In this document: positions 1,995 to 15,345 of the stretch, piece by piece
Numbering within the stretch: the stretch's first letter is position 1
How the letters are laid out: every line of letters begins with the position of its first letter
From: a virus
DNA: 28,267 bases
Direction: 5' to 3' (one strand)
IMG/VR virus record: IMGVR_UViG_3300032242_000325
Location: 1 to 28,267 of that record
Translations under genes and position numbers: made by a program
The notes under the pieces: model-generated
The model's input: the letters and a program-made list of their open reading frames with translations, nothing else
Database searches by the model: none
What the model was told of the DNA's origin: nothing

Positions 1995-2161
1995 TGAGTG
2001 ATTTGCCCAATTTTGGTGCTTGGTCCAACGAAAACTTAGCTAATTTCTGCAAAGATTCATATATTCGTATGCAAGAACAGCAGCAAGAATTACAACGTAT
2101 AAAACTATGTTTGCTGGCTATAAAGGACTTATTGTCTGACATAGAAACCGCAAAAGAATAG
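1994..2161 (+). CDS. 55-residue helical phage protein
   Basis: A short gene starting at a TAATG overlap with the HTH gene, behind AGGAAAA. The protein begins MSDLPNFGAWSNENLANFCK and continues as one long heptad-like helix (YIRMQEQQQELQRIKLCLLAIKDLLSDI), so it may be a coiled coil. The WSNENLANFC opening resembles small helical proteins I have seen in phage early regions; no function is known. It ends in TAG at 2159-2161, leaving 50 bases before the next start. Confidence 0.75.
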   Translation: MSDLPNFGAWSNENLANFCKDSYIRMQEQQQELQRIKLCLLAIKDLLSDIETAKE

Positions 2162-2211
2162 GCTAGGATGTGGCTGCAGCGACTTGCTGTAACCACATTT
2201 TTGGAGTTTTT

Positions 2212-2427
2212 ATGTATACGTTTGCTATTGTTTTTGATTTCGAAGACTTGCTGGATCTAATGGGTTTTGAAGAGATCATTGAAGACGAAGAAGTCGAAGA
2301 AGAGTACGAGTACGATGACGAAGGTACGGCGTATTGGTTCGATGAGGAAAATGATGTGTGGTACTGGTACGACGAGGAGTCGGATGACTGGTACGAATGC
2401 GAAGACGAAATTGAATACGAGTTTTAA
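2212..2427 (+). CDS. Hyperacidic, Trp/Tyr-rich small protein (possible DNA mimic)
   Basis: A 71-residue protein starting at ATG 2212 with GGAG seven bases before it; an in-frame GTG at 2170 lacks a site and would add an unrelated lead. By my count it has 32 Asp/Glu and no Lys, Arg or His, with 8 Tyr, 4 Trp and 6 Phe. The first 20 residues (MYTFAIVFDFEDLLDLMGFE) are partly hydrophobic; the rest alternates acidic runs with aromatic pairs (TAYWFDEEN, VWYWYDEES, DDWYECEDE), a repeat of roughly nine residues. Such composition is typical of proteins that imitate DNA, for example Ocr or Arn of other phages, but no sequence similarity to those is claimed. It is the last plus-strand gene before the terminator. 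Confidence 0.8.
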   Translation: MYTFAIVFDFEDLLDLMGFEEIIEDEEVEEEYEYDDEGTAYWFDEENDVWYWYDEESDDWYECEDEIEYEF

Positions 2428-2441
2428 TTTTGTCCATAAGA

Positions 2442-2468
2442 GTGGGCGGCTAATAACCGCCTACTTTT
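2442..2468 (+). terminator. Intrinsic terminator of the plus-strand operon
   Basis: GTGGGCGG (2442-2449) pairs with CCGCCTAC (2457-2464) as an 8-bp stem with one G-U wobble, loop CTAATAA, followed by TTTT. On the minus strand the wobble becomes an A-C mismatch and no T run follows, so it should stop plus-strand transcription better than minus. The stop codon of the convergent phosphoesterase gene (2450-2452) lies in the loop. Confidence 0.7.
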
Positions 2469-3403
2469 ATAACCTCACCCCTAAACTCAATCTCATCTTT
2501 ATTCCAGAAATGGAATAACTCAGGCCACAATAAACGCCCATTTTTGAGCGTCAGCATGGCAAATCCAGACCTGTGATTCAACGGATTATGTTCCGAGTAC
2601 GAAAATTGTGGTCCATAAGGGTCCGCTAATGTGCCTGTATCCACGCCAAACCGGTTTCCATTGTAATCAGCGTATGGAGTCACCTTCAAGCTGTGCAAAT
2701 GGCCTGTAACGATGGATGTACCGGCTCCAACAGTATTGTTATGGGTGGCATGGACTCCACCCTTGTAACGGTGCTTAACGATTAGGTCTTCTGTTATCCA
2801 GGCAGACCAACAAAAATTCCAGTCTTCAAAGTGGTCTTCTAGCTTAAATCCTGGGGTTTGAACATACTGTGGTGCATTAGATGCCAATCTCGCAGCAAAT
2901 CTCGCATCATGGTTGCCCATTGTCCATATCAGCTTTACATTTCGTCTGGCTTGTTTGGCAGTCTCCGAAACTTCCGACAGCATTGCTTTACAGGCATTCA
3001 GTTCTTGGATTACAGATGGAAGTTTTTCCCAACCCATAGGCGGGTGACGAGATATAGCAGCGCCATCAAAGGCATCCCCATTACAAATAACTGCTTTTGG
3101 GGAATACGTTTCAATCGCATATAGTAGAGCCTTAAACGCCGTTGAACGAATGCCAGGCCAAAAGTGAGCGTCCGAAAAAACGATGACTGTGCCATTTTCT
3201 ATCCCCAGATCAACTTTGTTTGGGAAGATGTGTTGCCGATAAACCCAACGCTGATCGTTTACCGGCAATACTTTCCCATGCTTTTCTTCTTGTCTTCTAC
3301 GTCTTCCATGCACTGCTCTTTCCGTAACGCCCAGTTCGTCTGCCACTAACTTTGCAGACTTTAATCTATTCCAAGATTCCAAAAACTGTTCTTCAGAAAT
3401 CAT
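2450..3403 (-). CDS. Calcineurin-like metallophosphoesterase with N-terminal HTH
   Basis: A 317-residue protein. I placed the start at 3403 (AAGGA five bases upstream); the frame stays open further, but that extension lies inside the lysozyme gene and has no site. Residues 8-42 form an HTH-like basic segment (KLVADELGVTERAVHGRRRR). The catalytic domain has the family motifs in order: SDAHFW with D78 and H80, NGDAFDG with D110 and D113, GNHD at 163-166, a histidine block HATH at 218-221, and GHLH at 234-237. These bind two metal ions in phosphoesterases of the Mre11/calcineurin fold, so it probably hydrolyses a phosphodiester or phosphomonoester; the HTH suggests a nucleic-acid substrate, as inference. 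It is the last gene of the late operon, eight bases after lysozyme. Confidence 0.9.
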   Translation of the reverse strand: MISEEQFLESWNRLKSAKLVADELGVTERAVHGRRRRQEEKHGKVLPVNDQRWVYRQHIFPNKVDLGIENGTVIVFSDAHFWPGIRSTAFKALLYAIETYSPKAVICNGDAFDGAAISRHPPMGWEKLPSVIQELNACKAMLSEVSETAKQARRNVKLIWTMGNHDARFAARLASNAPQYVQTPGFKLEDHFEDWNFCWSAWITEDLIVKHRYKGGVHATHNNTVGAGTSIVTGHLHSLKVTPYADYNGNRFGVDTGTLADPYGPQFSYSEHNPLNHRSGFAMLTLKNGRLLWPELFHFWNKDEIEFRGEVIKVGGY

Positions 3404-14431: not shown

Positions 14432-14665
14432 TTACTTCAAGTTAATAATTGCCGTTGAAGTTTCTCGGTCAATAGTCATTACACCTTGGCACACCACGTT
14501 CCAGTCCTCGCTGTCGGCTGCTTTCTCACTTTGAGAAGGCACATTAAGGATGAAATGTTTAAACAGATATTCCTTGCCGTTTTCAAACACACGCCAGCAA
14601 TGATCCAACGTTCCACGGCCTTCCATGCCACGGGACTTATTGAACCTAATTGCATATTTATTCAT
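14432..14665 (-). CDS. Conserved 77-residue phage protein (KYAIRFNKxRG family)
   Basis: A 77-residue protein starting MNKYAIRFNKSRGMEGRGTL, then DHCWRVFENGKEYLFKHFIL, DWNVVCQGVMTID and RETSTAIINL. I recognise this compact beta-rich protein from aquatic phages, including T4-like cyanophages, where it also lies near tail and oxygenase genes; its function is unknown to me. It overlaps the oxygenase stop by ATGA, so the two are co-translated, and it ends three bases before the nozzle gene. Two cysteines occur (C23, C59). Confidence 0.8.
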   Translation of the reverse strand: MNKYAIRFNKSRGMEGRGTLDHCWRVFENGKEYLFKHFILNVPSQSEKAADSEDWNVVCQGVMTIDRETSTAIINLK

Positions 14666-15345
14666 ATTACTTCAGCAGTGGGAGCAGGGCAAGCCTGTTG
14701 CGGCTCAGCGTACTGCACTCCAATGGTGAAATGTATAAATCTCAATGGCTCATCAGACCCGTGGCGGCTAAAAGAATGCGGCAGCCACGAATTTGTAAAT
14801 ATCAACATCCCTGGTTTTGGTTGAAAATTAACTTTGTCGCTGGCGGGCGTTACTTTACTCATGTCCGCTTCTGGCAAATTAATCTGTGTTTTGCCAGAGC
14901 GAGGGTCATGCAGCACAGGGCGAGAACAATTCTCTGGGGTATCAATAAAGTAAAACCCCACCAATTGAGCGCCCCTACCGTGGATATGCTCATCCATCGC
15001 CGAGTGCTTGTAATGTTCTTGACACCACAACTCTTGGAATACGGTAGTCATGCCTTGCGTAAAGTGGCCTTGTCCTTCAAGAATGTTCCACGCAGTTTCA
15101 GCAACAAATTTTGCAAAGTCCGTTATGCGAACATCGTTAAACAAGTTGTCCGTCATGTATGCGGGATACAACTCATCTAATTGAGATTGAACTTTTTTGC
15201 GAGTTTCAAGTGCGTCAAGACAGACCTGTTTTACATTTGCAAGGAACTCAGGCTTTTGAAGTGTGTACACAAGCGCAGGGAAATACGCTTCTACCATTAT
15301 TTCATTGGTAGTTTTAACAACTTCAGCAGAACTGAGGACACACAT
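14662..15345 (-). CDS. 2-oxoglutarate/Fe(II)-dependent oxygenase-like protein
   Basis: A 227-residue protein of the family of putative 2OG-Fe(II) oxygenases common in aquatic phages. The jelly-roll core carries MDEHIHGRGAQLVGFYFIDT, with D118, H120 and H122 as metal-ligand candidates, then an LHDPRSG turn, PKPGMLIFTNSWLPHSF with H190 as the distal ligand, and EPLRFIHFTI with R202 as the 2-oxoglutarate-binding candidate. The opening EAYFPALVYT is also typical. Such enzymes hydroxylate proteins or nucleic acids; the substrate here is unknown. GGAG seven bases before the ATG at 15345 supports the start; M17 (VEAYFP) is an alternative. It lies amid tail-fibre genes. Confidence 0.8.
   Translation of the reverse strand: MCVLSSAEVVKTTNEIMVEAYFPALVYTLQKPEFLANVKQVCLDALETRKKVQSQLDELYPAYMTDNLFNDVRITDFAKFVAETAWNILEGQGHFTQGMTTVFQELWCQEHYKHSAMDEHIHGRGAQLVGFYFIDTPENCSRPVLHDPRSGKTQINLPEADMSKVTPASDKVNFQPKPGMLIFTNSWLPHSFSRHGSDEPLRFIHFTIGVQYAEPQQACPAPTAEVI

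Follow-up and report, generated by a model that had tools for sequence, protein, structure and literature searches.

A hyperacidic acid-aromatic phage protein carried by a moron-like cassette with a candidate phosphate-responsive leader

Introduction

What could a phage gain from a small protein that combines an extreme negative charge with many aromatic side chains, and under which conditions would it be made? The question is raised by a gene of 71 codons in the window, by which we mean the whole stretch of 28,267 bases analysed here, a virus record. Among named phages the podovirus MW202484 (Manatee Spring) comes closest to it, with 74.8% identity across terminase and portal. A preliminary description of the sequence had seen in this gene the last member of an early-type operon, and in its product a candidate DNA mimic for counter-defence that could instead bind a cationic host partner. 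The coordinates of the features discussed are collected in Table 1.

Table 1. Features at the locus of the hyperacidic protein (positions refer to the window)
Feature	Position	Strand	Basis or remark
Degenerate PhoB box	2136..2154	+	CTGACAT (2136-2142, 6/7) and a weak second half; 19-mer CTGACATAGAAACCGCAAA, 12/19
-10 element TAGGAT (family consensus TANGAT)	2164..2169	+	TANGAT-type hexamer, same place in all aligned leaders
5' leader hairpin TGCAGC-GACTT-GCTGTA	2175..2191	+	Covariation; predicted at the extreme 5' end of the mRNA
Shine-Dalgarno GGAG	2203..2206	+	5 nt 5' of the ATG; GGGG, GGAG or GAGG kept in relatives
Hyperacidic acid-aromatic protein, 71 aa	2212..2427	+	ORF translation, composition, family conservation
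Conserved C-terminal module, residues 31-62	2302..2397	+	Alignment and predicted four-stranded antiparallel beta meander
Hairpin GTGGGCGG..CCGCCTAC, A/T flanks	2436..2470	+	Bidirectional terminator between convergent genes
Metallophosphoesterase gene	2450..3403	-	Conserved neighbour in 40 loci, before or behind the cassette, to which it does not belong

Results

The gene and its protein family

Translation of the gene gives MYTFAIVFDFEDLLDLMGFEEIIEDEEVEEEYEYDDEGTAYWFDEENDVWYWYDEESDDWYECEDEIEYEF (P0001), and a count of its residues confirmed the composition first reported: 32 of the 71 are acidic (20 Glu and 12 Asp), 18 are aromatic (8 Tyr, 6 Phe and 4 Trp), and Lys, Arg and His are lacking. 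The net charge computed at pH 7 is about -32, and in a six-frame scan of the entire window the runner-up 71-residue stretch outside the gene reached only -18. The ATG at 2212 is the start in all close relatives. An upstream GTG (2170) was rejected as a start codon, since it lacks conservation and translation from it would run through the leader hairpin.

Two scans of the viral collection yielded a family of 64 loci in IMG/VR viral contigs, with 48 distinct proteins. The C-terminal module (YEYDDEGTAYWFDEENDVWYWYDEESDDWY) is nearly invariant across the family, with a mean pN of 0.11 versus a mean pS of 0.81. Since 48 distinct homologous proteins were found and pN is low relative to pS in the module, a chance origin is excluded; as judged from these comparisons, positions 2212-2427 are a real gene of an undescribed viral family under strong purifying selection, and the acid/aromatic composition is itself under strong selection. 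Of 47 proteins, 46 have no basic residue in the 30-residue module and one has a single His there. For the entire protein, the lack of basic residues holds in the window and its closest relatives, but most other members carry one to five Lys, Arg or His outside the module. Y41, W42, Y51, Y53 and W60 are the invariant aromatics of the predicted sheet.

The N-terminus occurs in a short form, found in the window and in L015, L018 and L022, and in a long form (MEFTLTIDFGFGE...) for which a beta-hairpin and a helix are predicted. At the other end, the window protein terminates in EYEF and many long forms in VAA, SAA, SAE or IAE (L020, L051, L060, L053). An ssrA-like degron was considered for the VAA and SAA endings and dropped, as they are not universal and the window protein ends differently.

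Neither Pfam nor PHROGs returned any match to P0001 alone. When a 29-member alignment was used against the same two libraries, scattered weak matches appeared (best E 0.04 in each) which pointed to no consistent family, and a profile search of PDB sequences gave nothing convincing. No relative was found among named phages by tblastn, a result weakened by the BLAST masking of low-complexity acidic sequence. Family members were absent from 84,980 bacterial and archaeal genomes, with no prophage copy there either, and the window's terminase had no relative in the bacterial genomes searched. A Foldseek search of predicted viral structures (BFVD) gave A0A6J5NEZ6, A0A6J7WGB1 and A0A6J7WIK2 (E 0.006-0.05, probability 1.0), which are 35-40% identical in the aligned parts, uncharacterized and all from uncultured Caudovirales phage; they are probably family members. 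Protein family libraries are thus far without this family, whose highly conserved 30-residue module offers a convenient starting point in the search for its target in the host.

Leader and terminator

The leaders of the family, aligned as 43 distinct sequences, share one layout which is conserved in all 43: TANGAT, 4-5 nt, a TGCAGC-GNNNT-GCTGCA hairpin, a CCATTTTT stretch, the Shine-Dalgarno motif and ATG. Pairing of the hairpin stem is formed in 98.9% of the sequence-pair cells and is accompanied by 8 compensatory double changes (C-G/U-A, A-U/G-C and C-G/A-U), a covariation that exceeds all 500 shuffles (0/500) and all slid controls. Rfam returned nothing at the leader hairpin, and a plain sigma70 promoter scan called no promoter around the gene. 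Because of the place of the -10 element (2164-2169), the first transcribed base would lie near the foot of the hairpin, which would then cap the 5' end of the mRNA. When the viral collection was searched with the leader-DNA pattern alone, 24 stretches were obtained, and all 24 turned out to precede a family member, including some which the protein search had missed.

Behind the gene, the terminator hairpin has a folding energy of -20.4 kcal/mol (z -4.8), equalled by 0 of 200 shuffles, and hairpins 3' of the gene were also seen in the relatives that were folded. A second hairpin (GGGTA..TACCC or ACTCA..TGAGT) stands right behind the stop codon, ahead of the terminator, in L018, L020, L053, L060 and L065.

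Candidate control by PhoB

A sigma70 -35 is lacking upstream of the -10 element of the leaders; what is conserved there is a TGTCATAAAT block, and most leaders contain PhoB-like half-sites of the form CTGTCAY. The PhoB box is described as tandem CTGTCAT repeats with 4-bp linkers that overlap the -35 region (PMC3511308). Between the best 19-mer and the -10 element, 28 of the 46 distinct leaders have a gap of 9 nt, 2 have one of 8 nt and 12 have one of 19-20 nt, longer by an 11-bp unit; the E. coli controls phoA, pstS and phoB have the same 9-nt gap. Among 15 clade representatives the in-phase half-site scored 6.13/7 on average, compared with 3.57 after dinucleotide shuffling (p about 0.0003). 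The half-site test was also passed by the three context groups one by one; as the leaders are related by descent, the tests are not fully independent. In nearly all of these representatives the best half-site lies in the 10 or 20/21 phase. A second in-register half-site is present in some clades only (L010, L014).

The combination is also specific. A box of at least 15/19 followed after 8-10 nt by TA...T was confined to family leaders in the 805 kb of DNA examined, and the half-site pattern TGTCAYA-N9-TA...T gave 17 distinct matches, every one of them a family leader. As a positive control, a strict two-half-site box scan of the viral collection recovered phage pstS genes; strict boxes (at most one mismatch) were absent from six phage records searched. 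These data suggest that the cassette is under phosphate-starvation (PhoB) control by the host, which for the family as a whole we consider reasonably probable, the consensus used being the enterobacterial one of E. coli, from which the box of the host concerned may differ.

Sister loci carry much stronger boxes than the window, where one good half-site is joined by a poor one. The window's box ends 9 nt before the -10 element, overlaps the end of the preceding ORF and was matched in quality by 9 of 200 shuffles; another possible reading of its CTGACA is a sigma70 -35, separated by a 17-nt spacer from TAGGCT. PhoB control of the window's own gene is accordingly proposed only tentatively, with less certainty than for the family.

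Two further kinds of gene were seen behind Pho-like sites. In five viral contigs (L096, L101, L108, L118 and L123), a small secreted porin-like protein (PYLEYKYKSLLEDP...) is encoded behind two or three Pho half-sites, which are perfect and lie at a fitting distance from a -10 element, and the sites suggest that this gene is probably under host PhoB. In L097 and L124 (contigs of 378-388 kb, L124 being a viral one of 379 kb), a PstS-like gene lies directly behind a perfect Pho box and a -10 element; the PstS-like phosphate-binding protein of L097 belongs to Pfam PBP_like_2.

Position and mobility of the cassette

In the window, the gene lies 50 nt behind the early genes on the same strand. This arrangement is one of several. 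The window is one of 16 loci where the cassette and the metallophosphoesterase (MPE) gene converge, the latter lying 15-31 nt downstream; in 24 loci the cassette is found at the same junction, codirectional behind the MPE gene and on the strand opposite to the early genes. A different group of phages, with a portal gene, GroES and an HTVC023P-type capsid gene, has the cassette behind the major capsid gene (13 loci). The preliminary description was correct about the position in the window; the interpretation as a member of an early-type operon calls for revision, given the gene's own leader and terminator, its opposite strand in 24 sister loci and its place behind the capsid gene elsewhere. Because the cassette moves and flips, the argument from operon position to counter-defence carries little weight.

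The same observations bear on the possibility that this is an ordinary early gene, co-transcribed from upstream early promoters, with a leader that is incidental or serves merely to stabilise the message. Its orientation and its distance from the early genes in the window would fit, as would the weakness of the window's own Pho-like box, but such a gene would hardly be expected in reversed orientation at this junction in sister loci, nor would it account for a leader conserved in all members, -10 element included, whose pattern, wherever it is matched in the viral collection, is followed by a family member. We therefore regard co-transcription as quite improbable.

At the junction of capsid and cement genes, loci with and without the cassette could be compared, a comparison that covers the capsid-gene junction of DSL-LC04 and HTVC023P. 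DSL-LC04 (capsid gene 73.5% shared) has the capsid-cement junction without the cassette and HTVC023P has the next gene directly behind the capsid gene, while the L064, L060, L065 and L020 types carry the cassette and an HNH endonuclease gene at this place. Downstream of the cassette, 23 loci, most of them from the capsid-gene group (L020, L022, L051, L060, L065 and others), have a convergent HNH gene, which may help the cassette to spread.

The frequent neighbourhood of the MPE gene raises the question whether the protein is a phosphate-related regulator or adaptor, whose acidic sheet would prolong phosphate uptake or release during infection, alongside the MPE, by binding a part of the host's phosphate machinery (PhoU, Pst, polyphosphate or phosphatase proteins). 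Such a role would be in keeping with the Pho-like leader of most relatives, with the 40 loci in which the two genes adjoin and with the phage genes known to be controlled by host PhoBR in cyanophages (PMC10976474). However, no MPE adjoins the cassette in the capsid-gene group, and some phages carry an MPE without an adjoining cassette; the MPE was not retained as a functional partner, and an adaptor role appears improbable.

Taken by sequence, the locus is a moron-like autonomous cassette of freshwater phages, consisting of a leader, one small gene and a terminator, which are kept together across positions, orientations and unrelated phages; a promoter-like leader and a terminator of its own, as expected of a moron, are both recognizable.

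Some other features of the window were noted. The MPE has a helix-turn-helix-like N-terminus and a 59% identical copy in the Manatee Spring phage MW202879. Two adjacent small early ORFs (27-278 and 275-496, + strand) look like paralogues which share F-A-x(3)-A/M-x-H-E-R-E-x-C-A-K-L-C, and a putative 2OG-Fe(II) oxygenase (PF13759) is encoded among the structural genes (14662-15345, - strand).

Predicted structure

Both the short and the long form were modelled with AlphaFold2 from 28-29 sequences. In both forms the module was modelled as a compact four-stranded antiparallel beta meander (pLDDT about 86-91) with predicted strands at residues 31-34, 40-44, 49-54 and 59-62; outside the module, including the N-terminal parts, confidence was low. 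Neither model had a match at E<=0.001 in a PDB fold search. Among the fold matches listed, WW domains and isolated blades of beta-propellers appeared with weak scores (Foldseek E>=1.6; VIA Z<=3.6); none was significant, and homology to these was not accepted.

These models bear on the idea that the protein is a DNA mimic which, like T7 Ocr, T4 Arn or lambda Gam, would block restriction, CRISPR, recombination or a nucleoid protein. Its extreme negative charge without any basic residue is what such a mimic would be expected to have, the leader suggests abundant expression, as is known for Ocr (PMC7064336), and a small accessory gene that moves between phages would suit counter-defence. Nevertheless, the predicted fold is a small, flat and short beta meander with a low-confidence N-terminus, and the elongated rod that an Ocr-type mimic would show was not predicted. 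Comparison of profiles and folds with Ocr, Arn, Gam and other mimics gave no match in sequence or fold, and the 29-member alignment had none in PADLOC, although a missing match does not exclude a relationship. In addition, control of the Pho type, to which most leaders point, is atypical of early counter-defence genes, and a literature search for a link between PhoBR and the regulation of CRISPR that might explain such control found no supporting paper; the invariant aromatics of the sheet are left unexplained by charge mimicry. We consider a DNA mimic unlikely, as nothing tested spoke for counter-defence beyond the charge.

Binding of metal ions or polyamines is another role that might be proposed for acidic clusters, which could chelate Ca/Mg or other cations and act as a buffer. 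The acidic side chains and the high expression expected would be suitable, but there is no conserved metal-site pattern, the sole Cys is not invariant (it is missing in the L049, L053, L060 and L065 types), and many of the invariant positions are aromatic or turn residues, so that this role is very improbable.

Discussion

The reading we favour, to which we give a probability of roughly 0.45, is that of a moron-like, probably phosphate-responsive cassette which delivers a polyanionic beta-sheet decoy. The gene would then probably encode a conditionally made decoy for a positively charged host molecule, rather than being merely the last gene of an early operon. The host RNA polymerase would transcribe the cassette from its own start, and in most family members, with half-sites in 11-bp phase, host PhoB would assist under phosphate scarcity; we infer this assistance because the phased half-sites lie 9 nt before the -10 element and a sigma70 -35 is lacking. 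The 5' stem-loop would protect the mRNA and lead to the synthesis of much protein. The small acidic and aromatic beta sheet with its acidic tails might serve as a polyanion in solution: during infection, and preferentially in phosphate-starved cells, it would bind a cationic partner of the host, such as a protein that binds nucleic acid, ribosomes or polyphosphate, and keep it occupied.

This action on a cationic partner is suggested by composition alone. It retains one part of the preliminary description, since, in general terms, a hyperacidic protein that binds something cationic in the host is still the most natural reading, and parts with the other, the DNA mimic in counter-defence, for which positive support was not obtained. 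A more specific version, which we put forward as a speculation of low probability, is that a protein polyanion induced by phosphate starvation mimics nucleic acid or polyphosphate without containing phosphorus, and strips or occupies cationic host proteins, for example ribosomal or nucleoid ones. If it were true, host nucleic acid or phosphate would be freed for phage DNA synthesis.

With T7 Ocr and other acidic DNA mimics the family protein has in common that it is a small, hyperacidic and probably abundant phage protein. Ocr, in contrast, is a 117-aa protein that forms a rigid dimer in the shape of bent DNA (PMC7064336), whereas the family protein is a predicted beta meander with many invariant aromatics and no match to the mimics.

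The likeness to phage morons lies in the promoter-like leader and terminator of its own, the presence or absence at a site in relatives, the varied position and the accessory context. Classical morons have been described in temperate phages and are expressed from the prophage (PMC7067206). The cassette differs from them in that no prophage or bacterial-genome copy was found and in that its leader looks environmentally regulated. It would thus be a compact mobile unit, with a regulated leader, an mRNA-capping hairpin, an acidic beta-sheet protein and a terminator, common to unrelated freshwater phages.

Finally, the cassette resembles the PhoB-controlled genes of cyanophages in being a phage gene behind a Pho-like box. 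In cyanophages, pstS, S-PM2d004 and other genes are under host PhoBR, and binding of PhoB has been shown by EMSA (PMC10976474). The cyanophage Pho box is PyTTAAPyPyT/A, while that of the cassette is of the enterobacterial CTGTCAT type, and the cyanophage genes under PhoB serve uptake or nucleotide functions, whereas the cassette gene encodes a tiny protein of neither kind. If the Pho control holds, these phages would sense the phosphate stress of the host in order to switch on a gene for neither a metabolic enzyme nor a transporter. Expression conditional on phosphate starvation of the host would put a known strategy to new use.
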